From NCBI RefSeq assembly GCF_009674825.1, contig NZ_WKJH01000001.1:186001-250000 (forward strand): 64,000 nucleotides of DNA, given 5' to 3'. The notes beneath the pieces were generated by a model, which saw only the letters and a program-made list of their open reading frames with translations, searched no databases and was not told where the DNA came from. Below, piece after piece: positions 5,252 to 43,384 of the stretch (position 1 is its first letter; the number at the start of each line of letters is the position of its first letter). Source of the DNA: Maribacter luteus (GTDB lineage: Bacteria > Bacteroidota > Bacteroidia > Flavobacteriales > Flavobacteriaceae). The translations under genes and the position numbers were made by a program.

Positions 5252-8200
5252 ATGAAACAAATTTGCACGGCTATTCTATTCGCATTTCTCTTTCTACAAC
5301 CTTTTCAAGATACATATGCACAACGAAAGAAAAAGACCATTTCCTTTAATGACTCATTATATAATGGTATGAAATACCGTCCTATCGGGCCTTTTAGAGG
5401 CGGAAGGGCCGGTACGGTTTCGGGCGTGTTGAACAACCCAAACATTTATTACATGGGTACGGCCGGTGGTGGTGTTTGGAAAACGACGGATGCAGGCAAT
5501 TCATGGGAATGTATCTCTGACGGATTTTTCGGAGGCTCTATTGGTGCCGTGGCCGTATCGGAGTCCGACCCAAATATCATCTATGTCGGTGAGGGCGAAC
5601 AAACATTGCGGGGCAATGTTTCTTCCGGAAAAGGATTATGGAAAAGTATGGATGCAGGAGAAACCTGGAAATTCATCGGCCTCAAGGATTCAGAGCATAT
5701 TGCCAGAATACGAATTCATCCAAAAAACCCTGATTTGGTATATGTAGCGGCTATTGGTAATTTATGGAAGCCGAACGAAACAAGAGGTGTATTCCGCTCC
5801 AAAAATGGAGGTGATAATTGGGAAAAGGTTCTTTATGTAAGCGATAAGGCCGGTGCGGGTGATTTAATATTGGATCCCAACAATAGTAGGATTATTTACG
5901 CCACGACTTGGGAAATGAAAAGGAATGGCTACCGTATGGATAGTGGCGGACCGGACAGTAAGCTTTTTAAAAGTACCGATGGTGGTGATACTTGGAAAGA
6001 CATTTCATCCCAGACCGGACTACCAGATTTTCCTTGGGGTATTGTCGGCATAACGGTATCTCCAGTTGATTCCAATAGGGTTTGGGCCCTTATCGAAGCG
6101 GAAAATGGAGGCTTGTTCCGTTCTGACGACGCTGGAGCAACCTGGGAAAAAATAAACGAGAACAGAGCCCTTCGCCAACGTGCTTGGTATTACACCCGTA
6201 TTTATGCCGATACTGAAAATATAGATAAGCTTTACGTAATGAATGTCAGTTATGGGGTTTCTACCGATGGAGGAAAAACCTTTACGCTAAAAAATGCCCC
6301 ACATGGCGACCATCATGATTTATGGATAGACCCGCAAAACAATAACAGAATGGTAATTGCCGATGACGGCGGTGCCCAAATTTCAAATGATGGCGGTAAT
6401 AATTGGACCACTTATTACAATCAACCTACGGCACAGTTCTACCGTATTGCGACAGATAGTATTTTCCCTTATCGTATTTATGGTGCACAACAAGACAATA
6501 CGGCTTTGCGTATTTCCCATAGATCTTCCGGGGCTTCCATTTCAGAACGTGACTGGGAACCTACTGCAGGTGGGGAAAGTGCACATTTGGCACCTGACCC
6601 AAAAAACAATCAGATCGTTTACGGGGGTACTTACAAAGGCTATATGAATAGATTGGACCACACCACCGGCCAAGCTCGCTCGACCAATGTTTGGCCAGAC
6701 AATCCCGCAGGTTCCGGTGCTGAAATCATGAAATACAGGTTCAACTGGAATTACCCGGTCACTTTTAGCAGACATGATTCCAATAAATTATATGCAGGAT
6801 CCAACTATTTACATGTAACGACCGATGAAGGCCAGTCGTGGAAAACCATTTCCCCTGATCTTACAAGGGGTTTACCGGAAACGATAAAGTCATCCGGCGG
6901 ACCAATTACCCAAGACAATACCGGTGCGGAATTTTATTCGAATATTTTCGTAATCTCGGAGTCCATCTTGGAAAAAGGTGTCATATGGACGGGTAGCGAC
7001 GATGGTTTGATCCACGTAACCAGGGATAATGGTGTTTCATGGGACAATGTAACGCCTCCTTCATCCATTTCCCCTAAATTGAACATGATCAATTCCATTG
7101 ATCCAAGCCCTTTCCATAAAGGAACGGTTTACGTAGCTGCTACAGCCTACAAATTCGGCGATTACACACCATACCTATATAAGACTACCGATTATGGAAA
7201 AACATGGACTTTAATTACCAAGGGCATAAAAGACAATTATTACACACGGGTAATACGAACAGACCATGAACGCGAAGGACTTTTATATGCCGGAACCGAA
7301 TGGGGCATGTACATTTCATTCGATGATGGTAATTCTTGGTCCCCCTTTCAATTGAACTTACCGATTACGGCCATACGCGATTTACATGTTAGGGACAATG
7401 ACCTGATAGTGGCCACCCATGGTAGAAGTTTTTGGATCATTGATGACCTAACACCCTTACACCAACTTTCGAAAACTGTTGCCGACAGTTCTTTTTATCT
7501 GTACAAACCCGATACTTCATATAGGATGCATCAATCCGGTGGATGGTCAAAACCCAACACCAAACTCGTTGGGGAAAATCATCCAGATGGGGTAATGATT
7601 AATTTCTACTTGAAGAAATTTCAGGAAAAGGATACTGTACAACTCGAAATCTTAGAAGAAAACGGAGCTTTAATCCAAGGTTATTCAACACATGCCAAGG
7701 CCGACAAATTGAATCCCTCAGCCACCAAACGCTTAAAAGTCCAGGCTGGCGGCAATAATATGGTTTGGAACATGCGTTACCCTGGATACAAAACGTTCAA
7801 AGGCATGATCTTTTATTCTTCACCGAACAAGGGACCCAAGGCGGTTCCCGGAAATTACAAACTTAAACTTACCGTGAACGGTGTTTCCCAAGAACAGGGA
7901 TTTGAGATTATAAAAGACCCTAGATTACCCAACTCGCAAAATGATTACAGGGAACAATTTGACTTTTTGATCGCAGTACGCGACCAAGTAACCAAAGCGA
8001 ACGAAGCCATCATCAAAATAAGAAGCATTCAAAAAGATTTAAAATACTTAAAGGATAAGACAAAAGACAATGATAGTTTACAAACGTTGATCACGGAATA
8101 TGAAGCTGAACTTTCGGTGATAGAGAACAATATTCATATGACCAAGAACAAAAGTAGGCAAGACCCACTGAATTACGGTATACGCATTAATAATAGGCTG

Positions 8201-35092: not shown

Positions 35093-35178
35093 CGCTTTAA
35101 AATATACACAGTAAGCATGCAATACCAGTTCTTAAAATTCAATTCCGAACACCCGAAGGATTAGGGGTGATTCACATG
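35093..35178 (+). repeat. Degenerate terminal CRISPR repeat (repeat 0)
   Basis: This stretch keeps pieces of the array repeat: GCTTTAA (35093-35099), CAGTTCTTAAAATTC (35126-35140), GAAGGAT and GGTGATTCACATG (ending 35178, against GATGATTCACAGG in intact copies). It is followed by exactly 30 nt (35179-35208) before repeat 1, a normal spacer length, so it is a true decayed array unit and not chance similarity. GCTTTAA matches the long repeats (GCTTTAACTC) and not the short ones (GCTTTCAG), hinting that this old copy was of the long type. The exact left border is uncertain. Confidence 0.7.
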
Positions 35179-35208: not shown

Positions 35209-35301
35209 GTTGTGAATTGCTTTAATTCATTAACGCTTATTTTTATAGGAATTCGTTGAATCTTCGATTTCAGTTCTTTAATTTTAAGGATGATTCACAG
35301 G
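35209..35301 (+). repeat. Long CRISPR repeat 1 (93 nt)
   Basis: Long form with the 47-nt internal block. It differs from the other three long copies by one base (T instead of C at 35226, GCTTTAATTC against GCTTTAACTC). Confidence 0.95.
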
Positions 35302-35331
35302 TATTTCTGTCAACACATCATCGACAATGGC

Positions 35332-35424
35332 GTTGTGAATTGCTTTAACTCATTAACGCTTATTTTTATAGGAATTCGTTGAATCTTCGATTTCAGTTCT
35401 TTAATTTTAAGGATGATTCACAGG
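35332..35424 (+). repeat. Long CRISPR repeat 2 (93 nt)
   Basis: Identical to long repeats 3 and 8. The second half begins GTTGAATCTTCGATTTCAG, a diverged version of the repeat start. Confidence 0.95.
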
Positions 35425-35454
35425 ATCAAGGCAACATTGGGTTTCCTTGAAGGT

Positions 35455-35547
35455 GTTGTGAATTGCTTTAACTCATTAACGCTTATTTTTATAGGAATTC
35501 GTTGAATCTTCGATTTCAGTTCTTTAATTTTAAGGATGATTCACAGG
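35455..35547 (+). repeat. Long CRISPR repeat 3 (93 nt)
   Basis: Last of the three consecutive long copies at the old end. The next four repeats (35577-35850) are short. Confidence 0.95.
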
Positions 35548-35879
35548 AATACCAGCCCATCGGTTAATTATTGTTTGTTGTGAATTGCTTTCAGTTCTTT
35601 AATTTTAAGGATGATTCACAGGTTTTATAGACACAAATGATACTAGTCCTGTGTTGTGAATTGCTTTCAGTTCTTTAATTTTAAGGATGATTCACAGGAA
35701 AAAACCATTGCGGAAATTGAAAACAGCAGTTGTGAATTGCTTTCAGTTCTTTAATTTTAAGGATGATTCACAGGCCTTCTTTAAATTACGCACTAACTTT
35801 AATTGTTGTGAATTGCTTTCAGTTCTTTAATTTTAAGGATGATTCACAGGAGTAACCGAAAAGAGTATTTTGACATTTT

Positions 35880-35972
35880 GTTGTGAATTGCTTTAACTCA
35901 TTAACGCTTATTTTTATAGGAATTCGTTGAATCTTCGATTTCAGTTCTTTAATTTTAAGGATGATTCACAGG
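35880..35972 (+). repeat. Long CRISPR repeat 8 (93 nt), isolated among short copies
   Basis: Identical to long repeats 2 and 3 but flanked on both sides by short repeats (7 and 9), so the long form re-appears once after the switch to short repeats. Confidence 0.95.
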
Positions 35973-37256
35973 ATATTGTCCAACGTACTTAAATAGCGGT
36001 TGTTGTGAATTGCTTTCAGTTCTTTAATTTTAAGGATGATTCACAGGTTAAATGACGTGGTACGCATGGAAGATGGGTTGTGAATTGCTTTCAGTTCTTT
36101 AATTTTAAGGATGATTCACAGGCCGCGAACCAAGCGGCATTGAGTACCGTAAGTTGTGAATTGCTTTCAGTTCTTTAATTTTAAGGATGATTCACAGGTG
36201 GTTGATCAACCCGGCGTCCAACATTTCCGTTGTGAATTGCTTTCAGTTCTTTAATTTTAAGGATGATTCACAGGTAGAAAGTCCTGTATATCTAGGTAGT
36301 TTAAGTTGTGAATTGCTTTCAGTTCTTTAATTTTAAGGATGATTCACAGGACAGCGATAGGTTTTAGGCATGAGGATATGGTTGTGAATTGCTTTCAGTT
36401 CTTTAATTTTAAGGATGATTCACAGGAGCTGCGGAAAAACCCAAAAACAAGAACCCGTTGTGAATTGCTTTCAGTTCTTTAATTTTAAGGATGATTCACA
36501 GGAAACCTTATCTATCAATGTCACCATCCATTGTTGTGAATTGCTTTCAGTTCTTTAATTTTAAGGATGATTCACAGGTTCCTTCCAGAAATTCAAGGAT
36601 AACTTTAGTTGTGAATTGCTTTCAGTTCTTTAATTTTAAGGATGATTCACAGGTTTAATGATTATAGACATTTGTAATGAATGTTGTGAATTGCTTTCAG
36701 TTCTTTAATTTTAAGGATGATTCACAGGAAGAAAGGGTCTAACTATGTGATGGACTGTGTTGTGAATTGCTTTCAGTTCTTTAATTTTAAGGATGATTCA
36801 CAGGTGTTTGTATTTTTTTCTTTGCCATAATCAGTTGTGAATTGCTTTCAGTTCTTTAATTTTAAGGATGATTCACAGGTGGAAAGATACCGAAGCTATC
36901 GACGTAATCGTTGTGAATTGCTTTCAGTTCTTTAATTTTAAGGATGATTCACAGGAGATGATAGATGGGTGTTTGATAAGAACTGGTTGTGAATTGCTTT
37001 CAGTTCTTTAATTTTAAGGATGATTCACAGGCTATAACTTGTGCCGTTGGTATGCTGCCCTGTTGTGAATTGCTTTCAGTTCTTTAATTTTAAGGATGAT
37101 TCACAGGTTGAAACCGTCTGCCCGTGTGATTGAGTAGGTTGTGAATTGCTTTCAGTTCTTTAATTTTAAGGATGATTCACAGGAAATAAAAGAATTTGGA
37201 ATGATACCAACTGTTGTGAATTGCTTTCAGTTCTTTAATTTTAAGGATGATTCACA

Positions 37257-37284
37257 GGATACCAGCTGCAAAACACTGGTATCC
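37257..37284 (+). promoter_or_regulatory. Hairpin at the array/leader junction
   Basis: GGATACCAG (37257-37265; its GG is the last two bases of repeat 25) pairs perfectly with CTGGTATCC (37276-37284) around a 10-base loop. It begins the 109-bp AT-rich stretch between the array and the end of cas2. It could anchor the integration site or stop transcription leaving the array; the run after it (TGTTATTT) is weak for a terminator. Confidence 0.5.
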
Positions 37285-37367
37285 TGTTATTTAAGACCCG
37301 TCTTAGGAATAAAAAATGAGTCCTGCAATTAGACCAATATCAAGCTCTAACCACCTATTTTTATATT

Positions 37368-37745
<378 letters not shown>

Positions 37746-37789: not shown

Positions 37790-38686
37790 TCATATGAATG
37801 TAGGATACAGCAATTTTCTGCTACTACCCTCAAAACATTCATATAAACTATTGGTGGTACGACTCATGGCGTTCATTAACGGGCTTTGTTTCCCATCTAT
37901 TACCACGTCCATGGCCGGTATACTTAATAGTTCGGCTTTCAAATTCTGGTTCAATTCTTCTAACTGACAACCCGTTTCTACAATATCGTACACCAAAGTA
38001 TCTACAAAAGGCCGATAGGGTTCCATAATATCATCGGCCAAACAAAAGGCGTTGTACTTATTTCGGTGAAAAATACCTATCGAGGGCAAAAGGCCACTAC
38101 TGCATAAGGCCCTTGCCGTTACGGCCCTAAGTATCGCATAACCGTAATTCAACAGATTATTAGGAGCCATTCCTTTTTGGTTACGGCTAAAACCTTCTAT
38201 ATCAAATAGGTTTTGAAAGTAAAAAGCCGCAGCATAGGCTTCATGGTTGTCAGTGTCGCCACTTTTGACTTCTTTAGCCCATCTTTTTAATTTAAGGGCA
38301 TTTTTACCTTGTGCCAAAAGATGTTGAGCCTGGTTTTCTATTTTGGCCATTACGGTTTGTTGCCATAATTGTTTTTTTAGGGGTAAACTGGCATTTAATT
38401 GGTGGCGCATACGCTCAGTCTGTTCGCTATGCCCCACTAAAGGTTGTAACATAGAACATGGTAAATGCTGTTTATCGCAGGTTATTACAGCGGTATTATT
38501 TTGCACCAGCTTCATCAACAAACCATTGGTCATGGTAATCTGTGGGTTTTCCAATACCACAAACCCTAAATCTTCTATGGGGGTGGTAGCGTCTTTATTG
38601 TCTTCCTCTGGAAAACTAACCACCAATTGTTCATTTCTGGAACTAAGGTATGCAGGATTGCCAAAAAAGAGAGTACGTTTAATCAT
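37790..38686 (-). CDS. cas1: CRISPR-associated integrase Cas1
   Basis: The 298-residue integrase has the expected metal-binding residues: Glu149 in DNHEAYAAAFYFQNLF, His207 in GIFHRNKYN and the acidic group in ADDIMEPYRPFVD (Asp218, Asp219, Glu222). With Cas2 it inserts new spacers at the array end. It starts 4 bp after the cas9 stop codon, so the two are co-translated; cas2 follows after a 74-bp gap. No frameshift or truncation is seen, so adaptation should be possible. Confidence 0.97.
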   Translation of the reverse strand: MIKRTLFFGNPAYLSSRNEQLVVSFPEEDNKDATTPIEDLGFVVLENPQITMTNGLLMKLVQNNTAVITCDKQHLPCSMLQPLVGHSEQTERMRHQLNASLPLKKQLWQQTVMAKIENQAQHLLAQGKNALKLKRWAKEVKSGDTDNHEAYAAAFYFQNLFDIEGFSRNQKGMAPNNLLNYGYAILRAVTARALCSSGLLPSIGIFHRNKYNAFCLADDIMEPYRPFVDTLVYDIVETGCQLEELNQNLKAELLSIPAMDVVIDGKQSPLMNAMSRTTNSLYECFEGSSRKLLYPTFI

Positions 38687-43187: not shown

Positions 43188-43281
43188 TTATATAGAGTTT
43201 TTTTAAATTTAAAAATAACCGTGCTCATTACCTTACAGAAAAGCGTAATGCCATTAATAATCTTTTTTTTACATTTACAGT

Positions 43282-43366
43282 ACTGAAAGCAATTCACAAT
43301 AAGGATTATTCCGTTGTGAAAACATTTAAAGCGGCATTGGTTTAATCTAATGTCGCTTTCTTTTTT
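43282..43366 (+). ncRNA. tracrRNA of the type II-C system
   Basis: Bases 43282-43299 (ACTGAAAGCAATTCACAA) are a perfect 18-nt complement of repeat positions 2-19. A -7-like TACATTTA (43270-43277) would start the RNA right at the anti-repeat. After it come a small GGA/TCC hairpin, AAAACATTTAA and an 11-bp stem with one G-U pair (AAAGCGGCATT / AATGTCGCTTT). The stem is followed by CTTTTTT and acts as terminator. The RNA is divergent from cas9. It pairs fully with short repeats but with only the first 14 nt in long repeats. Confidence 0.9.
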
Positions 43367-43384
43367 ACTCTTAAGGCTTCACGA

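Follow-up and report, generated by a model that had tools for sequence, protein, structure and literature searches.

Probable insertion of a small dispersed element at one fixed site in the oldest repeats of type II-C CRISPR arrays of Flavobacteriaceae

The CRISPR array of Maribacter luteus described here carries repeats of two lengths, and we consider it likely that the longer form arose when a small dispersed element inserted at one fixed site of ordinary 46-nt type II-C repeats, where it has been kept at the old end of the array. The element would enter between GCTTT and CAG, and apart from a shared TTT no duplication of the target accompanies it. The array was analysed within a window of 64,000 nucleotides (NCBI RefSeq assembly GCF_009674825.1, contig NZ_WKJH01000001.1, positions 186,001 to 250,000; coordinates below count from the first letter of the window).

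Array structure and system type

The array (35209–37258) comprises 25 repeats and 24 spacers, with 21 identical repeats of 46 nt and four repeats of 93 nt at positions 1, 2, 3 and 8 (Table 1). Each 93-nt repeat consists of the 15-nt and 31-nt parts of the short repeat with 47 nt between them. A preliminary description made from the sequence had reported four long repeats among short ones, outer parts identical to the short repeat and spacers of 29–30 nt beside both forms; the repeat list of the array agrees with it on all three counts, and no spacer is duplicated among the 24. Its claim that repeats 1, 2, 3 and 8 hold the same 47-nt block is right as to the site and not as to full identity, three copies being identical and repeat 1 differing by one base (AATTC rather than AACTC). 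The array also extends far beyond the end of the 35209–35972 first described. Upstream of repeat 1, at exactly the spacer distance of 30 nt, 18 bases agree with the end of the repeat at 15 positions, a match equalled in none of 100,000 mono-nucleotide shuffles, so that an older, degenerate repeat (R0) precedes the array.

Table 1 Features of the CRISPR locus in the Maribacter luteus window
Feature	Coordinates	Strand	Basis or remark
R0, 3' end of degenerate oldest repeat	35161..35178	+	match to repeat end, shuffle test
Long repeat R1, 93 nt	35209..35301	+	insert 35224-35270, one base off the other three
Long repeat R2, 93 nt	35332..35424	+	insert 35347-35393
Long repeat R3, 93 nt	35455..35547	+	insert 35470-35516
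Short repeats R4-R7 and spacers, between long repeats	35577..35850	+	
Long repeat R8, 93 nt	35880..35972	+	insert 35895-35941
Short repeats R9-R25 and spacers, younger part of array	36002..37258	+	polarity from literature and flank conservation
Conserved leader-side flank, hairpin with end of last repeat (CAGGATACC/GGTATCCTG)	37259..37292	+	
cas2	37368..37715	-	NCBIfam TIGR01573 above cut-off
cas1, type II	37790..38686	-	NCBIfam TIGR03639 above cut-off
cas9, type II, 1498 aa	38691..43187	-	NCBIfam TIGR01865 above cut-off
tracrRNA: anti-repeat 43269-43299, then nexus and terminator-like hairpin	43269..43367	+	ends by eye

A 43-nt piece of the block occurs four times in the window against none expected, and a 23-nt piece, searched with up to three mismatches, occurs in the 4.65-Mb assembly only at the four long repeats. 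The predicted structure of the block is not unusual (z-score -0.68). The window had no Rfam match at the gathering score, three patterns had no exact match in IMG/VR and the array had no match in phage and plasmid records. A repetitive region such as this one invites assembly or sequencing artefacts, an explanation that we find scarcely credible: the same structure is found in L010, in G360 and in G032, a genome in one contig, which argues against an assembly scar. The earlier view of the long forms as integrated units is right, and all of them have the block at the same site.

Type II-C loci carry cas9, cas1 and cas2 without csn2 or cas4, a tracrRNA and a promoter in each repeat, and they grow at the 3' end. 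In the window, cas9, cas1 and cas2 are adjacent, with no csn2 or cas4, and, as the preliminary description had supposed of an intact set beside mixed repeats, all three score above their NCBIfam cut-offs; no other ORF of 80 aa lies between cas2 and the array, and the side upstream of cas9 was inspected by eye only. Upstream of cas9 we located a tracrRNA, conserved near cas9 in relatives, whose anti-repeat matches the repeat by sequence: 31 nt with 4 mismatches against the short repeat, and only 14 nt against the long one. As judged from its sequence, the locus is a Flavobacteriaceae type II-C array.

Since the anti-repeat pairs with the repeat as read on the plus strand, transcription of crRNAs runs toward cas2. 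Passages in three sources (PMC12080349, PMC12638026, PMC8092290) describe II-C arrays in which the last repeat receives new spacers and the first is the oldest and 'extra', and one passage of PMC12638026 cautions that growth polarity may vary among II-C arrays. Between 19 arrays, mean identity was 74% in the 40 nt after the last repeat versus 33% in the 40 nt before the first; this conserved flank on the 3' side and the degenerate repeat on the 5' side are sequence indicators of 3' growth. With this polarity, all four long repeats fall within the eight oldest, and none of the 17 youngest repeats is long. The mixture once thought unusual for an array that copies the repeat at its growing end is thus real and does not sit at that end, so the copying rule is not violated at present.

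Inserts in other arrays

We searched 397 genomes of the family with a long-repeat profile, scoring 10 candidates per genome. At least 104 genomes matched; in most of them the match was weak or came from short repeats or dispersed copies, and full-length matches were obtained in other genera. Long repeats can be missed when only ten candidates are scored, as G127 was. A search of related genomes for the block inside repeats, one of the checks proposed at the outset, proved positive in the arrays of six other genomes. Complete long repeats occupy positions 1 and 3 of 26 in L010 (an uncultured Cellulophaga), positions 1–4, 8 and 9 of 38 in G032, and position 4 of 17 in G360, where further degenerate copies lie upstream. 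At positions 1 and 2 of 6 in G127, the insert follows the same GTTGTGAATTGCTTT and then runs into other sequence, and the short repeats of this genome differ at the insert site. G183 and G223 carry, at the same site of the first repeat, an insert with a similar left part and a different hairpin; that hairpin type is present at two other places in the window's genome, with 3 mismatches each, apparently inside one larger repeated unit.

Altogether, inserts after GCTTT were found in 17 of 586 repeats and in 7 of the 22 arrays read, a fraction that is not a prevalence because the arrays were picked by Cas9 similarity or by the long-repeat profile. Fifteen inserts belong to the family seen in the window and two (G183, G223) have the other hairpin; three further units, in G360, G145 and G143, have an unusual length and were left out of the count. 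Every insert lies at positions 1–9. Across six arrays (G223, with one repeat, was omitted), none of 200,000 permutations was as skewed toward the old end when all inserts were counted, and 518 of 200,000 were when each array was treated as one event at its youngest insert. The arrays of G186, L012 and G235 start at contig ends, and their oldest repeats are unseen.

In a junction search at the order level, 7 of 395 genomes matched, namely the window's own and six with single one-mismatch matches, which we take as chance. A second, largely overlapping draw from the family gave 7 of 381, with G032 and G360 again, G127 new and four single one-mismatch matches. Among 12 genomes of the genus, only the window's own matched.

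The order of long and short repeats would also follow if the element had inserted into the leader-proximal repeat in each lineage, Cas1-Cas2 had duplicated the 93-nt repeat along with several spacers, and later precise deletions between the two TTT runs had removed the insert from one or other daughter repeat until only short repeats were being added. The arrays of the window, L010 and G032 each pass from an early long phase to a short one, the inserts within one array are nearly identical, and three insert-bearing repeat copies adjoin leader copies on the cas2 side of G186. We nevertheless hold this course of events to be rather doubtful, as it requires integration across a double-length repeat and repeated precise loss, and makes a coincidence of the long phase standing at the oldest end in every insert-bearing array.

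Dispersed element family

The 47-nt block is, by sequence similarity, one member of a family of small dispersed elements. A 19-nt core of the block, searched with at most one mismatch in the 397-genome sample of Flavobacteriaceae, was present in 79 genomes, against 4 of 397 for the backward control (read from the table). G230 holds 34 core copies, G172 15, G382 7, G323 6 and the window's own genome 3. Copies of the block with conserved ends and no surrounding CRISPR repeat were also found, and some dispersed copies form inverted doublets. The element begins where TTT meets A(R)CTC, ends in a hairpin of the form TGAATC-loop-GATTTC, and measures about 47–57 nt in the complete long repeats. The stem letters of the hairpin are alike in 53 of 58 matched rows, and such near-invariance leaves covariation support thin; 7 of 65 element rows fall outside the pattern used. 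Searching 15 loci against Rfam at E values up to 0.5 returned only a tRNA, a sub-threshold L20 leader and one match at chance level.

The relatives outside CRISPR loci rule out the block as a second repeat design. They weigh equally on the idea that a long repeat is two repeats of 46 and 47 nt fused without a spacer, each with a palindrome-like end: the lengths sum correctly and GTTG starts both halves, but the dispersed copies keep the same ends away from any array, and we set the idea aside on finding them as highly improbable.

Several copies lie at gene starts, where reversed copies (L097/G186, L098/G085, L030, L044, L095/G000 C18) would add an N-terminal MKSKIHEY... before a second start. 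Copies at gene starts may act as movable 5' regions. Their position also weighs against the insertion model, as the dispersed copies might be something else.

Element class and mobility

REP and REPIN sequences are dispersed, mostly intergenic imperfect palindromes that flank a RAYT gene and carry a tag of the GTAG/CGTC type. The element studied here is likewise a dispersed, mostly intergenic imperfect palindrome. GTAG or CGTC stood within 8 nt of the hairpin in none of 63 rows and anywhere in 3, and we saw no RAYT gene flanked by the element in the window's genome or at 11 of 14 PF01797 matches in five others. The resemblance to the REP/REPIN elements treated in parts of PMC3733652 and PMC12306157 therefore lies in small size, dispersal, an imperfect hairpin and, for some copies, inverted doublets; the differences lie in the missing hairpin-adjacent tag (63 rows) and in the lack of a Y1/RAYT link in the surroundings read.

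The genome of the window encodes no Y1 transposase (PF01797), and the surroundings of 11 of the 14 PF01797 matches in five other genomes hold no significant copy of the element. A RAYT or IS200 enzyme as the mover is thus unsupported, and no element-mobilising enzyme was found in the window's genome or in the Y1 surroundings read in the five others.

Classical MITEs have terminal inverted repeats and a target duplication. Aligned by eye, the element shows no terminal inverted repeats, only TTT is common to both ends, and the TTT at the right end is carried by the dispersed copies themselves. Derivatives of the IS200/IS605 (HUH) kind make no target duplication, use a fixed short target on the left and have a subterminal hairpin. 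On the alignment, the features of the element are consistent with this pattern, with no enzyme linked. RNA folding of the short repeat predicts the insert site to be unpaired, in a stretch beside the terminal stem, a position that would suit an enzyme acting on single strands.

Each insert might instead be a separate transposition from a resident copy into an identical target. The fixed site and orientation fit this, and every copy of the repeat offers the target. The genome of the window, on the other hand, has no close copy elsewhere and no Y1 transposase, no young repeat has been struck in the arrays read, and its four inserts are at most one base apart; we think such independent events distinctly unlikely.

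Descent of the inserts

Insert-bearing arrays are scattered over the Cas1 tree. With 24 loci, the six insert-bearing arrays need six changes, of which the starred branches force at least four, and a single clade of such arrays was rejected (AU p = 3e-11). G223 is absent from this tree (no Cas1 in the stretch read), L012, G186 and G235 were scored as insert-less with their old ends unseen, L014 sits on a long branch, and bootstrap values were still just short of convergence. Omitting L012, G186, G235 and L014-L016 (18 loci) left six changes and one clade again rejected, and omitting G183 as well still rejected one clade (AU p = 3e-5). The nearest Cas1 relative of the window, L011 (a Maribacter; 91% identity), has no insert in the array read, with a run of 100 Ns shortly upstream of that array.

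The element tree was built from rows covering model positions 4–51 at E < 0.01, leaving out G127, G183 and G223, and holds 58 of 63 distinct rows, five near-copies from G230 (L101-L104) having been removed in advance. The in-array inserts need five changes on it and one clade is not rejected (AU p = 0.175), its 54 columns being too few to settle the number of origins. AGCTC is present in 10 of 12 in-array rows versus 9 of 51 dispersed rows, a sharing that suggests some array-specific descent.

These sequence affinities lend something to an older history, in which one ancient insert in the first repeat was inherited at the array end and often lost, its 3' half being homogenised with the short repeats since any recombination that removes spacers produces a first repeat of hybrid origin. 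Complete long repeats are present in four genomes (window, L010, G032 and G360); within each, long and short repeats have the 31-nt 3' half in common, and between genomes this half differs, which indicates that repeats are being homogenised; the AGCTC tendency and the single origin permitted by the element tree point the same way. The Cas1 tree offers no matching clade, L011 as the nearest relative has no insert, the hairpin differs in G183 and G223, and many losses or exchanges of array ends would be required, so that a single ancient insertion seems to us a somewhat improbable account. Recurrent insertion at one site is the simplest reading of the scatter on the Cas1 tree, the alternatives to it being an old insertion with many losses and exchange of array ends between lineages.

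The insertion model that we prefer would have three steps. The element would move, with the repeat site as a recurrent target; copies would reach adjacent repeats when repeats recombine or convert one another, or when a long repeat is copied at spacer acquisition, although recombination-driven spread is not seen in the array of the window; and inserts would persist at the oldest positions alone, since spacers there are presumably under weak selection.

Predicted effects on transcription and tracrRNA pairing

The motif TTG-N19-TAnnTT, picked after viewing the repeats, is present in 18 of 19 short repeat sequences. We take it to be the -33/-7 pattern of Bacteroidetes promoters. For II-C repeats, a -33 element with TTG has been proposed (PMC8092290). 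The insert separates the two halves of the motif in each of the four long forms tested, and by the same motif the inserts of L010, G032 and G360 supply no replacement promoter. The long repeat of the window gains a new TTG-N20-TAATTTTA and another match within the insert, so a promoter may not be lost there; a conserved replacement promoter in the insert was rejected, as by the motif used only the window's insert has one.

In the window, the short repeat is predicted to form its best anti-repeat duplex at -29.8 kcal/mol and the long one at -20.1; in L010 the values are -28.9 and -20.5 kcal/mol. When the entire repeat and the anti-repeat were folded together, the energies were -30.8 (short) and -30.6 (long), nearly equal because the long repeat folds on itself, and the loss of pairing may therefore matter less than the duplex figure implies. 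The question raised earlier of how long-repeat crRNAs are made and loaded stands, sharpened to a split promoter motif and a shorter predicted tracrRNA duplex. On these predictions, expression may differ for spacers 1, 2, 3 and 8, an odd handle may mark the crRNAs from spacers 1, 2 and 7, and the inserts may weaken old memory entries of the array. A block serving as a tracrRNA nexus piece in a natural single-guide RNA was dropped as a candidate, since reading by eye showed no anti-repeat in the long repeat.

We propose that inserts are confined to the oldest repeats because each one costs the spacer that follows an intact promoter motif and leaves the spacer before it with a shorter tracrRNA duplex. 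An insert may even help when it lies in the extra repeat at position 1, by silencing an extraneous crRNA. Taken further, the insert could be a recurrent, tolerated II-C end-cap that homes to GCTTT^CAG and silences the oldest or extra repeats through the split promoter and tracrRNA duplex, with Cas1-Cas2 copying the double-length repeat intact; this extended version we rate as unlikely.

Relation to known systems

Mobile DNA within CRISPR repeats has been described before: as far as the relevant part of PMC4852346 goes, IS or MITE insertions lie in direct repeats of 59 CRISPRs, including a 180-bp Microcystis MITE with a 5-bp duplication. The inserts reported here are of the same general kind. 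They differ from the cases in that part of the paper in being about 50 nt long, without clear target duplication and at a fixed site in several repeats per array, and they recur across genera and are confined to the old end in the arrays read.

A second parallel comes from the extra repeats of II-C arrays, for which a portion of PMC12080349 gives medians of predicted tracrRNA pairing of -26 versus -31 kcal/mol for the consensus, computed with a different program. As in those repeats, the oldest repeats here are altered so that predicted tracrRNA pairing weakens; unlike what that portion describes, the change is an insertion and also affects repeats that serve spacers. The same portion states that repeats differing by 2 nt or more in length from the consensus were dropped, a filter that would make long repeats invisible to that survey. 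In the open-licence literature we found no report of recurrent, same-site, old-end insertions in II-C repeats, several per array and across genera.

The arrays suggest that a tiny element can land repeatedly in a CRISPR repeat, and surveys that filter by length would miss such inserts. They are also natural test cases for how far a repeat-borne promoter and the tracrRNA duplex tolerate a 47-nt interruption, and for whether the acquisition machinery measures repeat length or reads only the two repeat ends.

Additional features of the loci

Several further structures were noted beside the arrays. On the cas2 side of the G186 locus (L054, 3000-3900), three tandem units of about 250 nt each join a degenerate repeat that bears an insert to the leader copy directly after it, and within them is another small palindrome (CCTGAGCGTAGCCGAAGG-like). 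The L010 array has, about 500 nt upstream (reverse coordinates ~6020-6110), a lone degenerate long repeat with an eroded 15-nt left part. In G032 (L052), the array contains two copies of several spacers, among them the first two that follow long repeats, which points to repeat recombination in that genome. The cas1 gene of G360 (L053) is split into two pieces in the same frame, so its array may no longer grow.

At eight loci (L052, L053, L056, L061, L064, L125, L126 and L127), Cas1 is 76–83% identical to that of the window (over partial length in L053) and the repeat is nearly identical, and the best Cas9 match in the fetched stretch is partial and only 21–30% identical. Cas9 seems to have been exchanged within this locus type, unless the fetched stretches cut Cas9.

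In the window (37250-37292) and at the 3' side of 19 other arrays, a conserved 9-bp hairpin joins the end of the last repeat to the leader flank, with a run of T after it in most cases. Three of 20 sequences have a repeat ending in T rather than G, and in these the partner base has changed as well; 99.4% of cells are paired. The hairpin may be a terminator, an integration mark or both.
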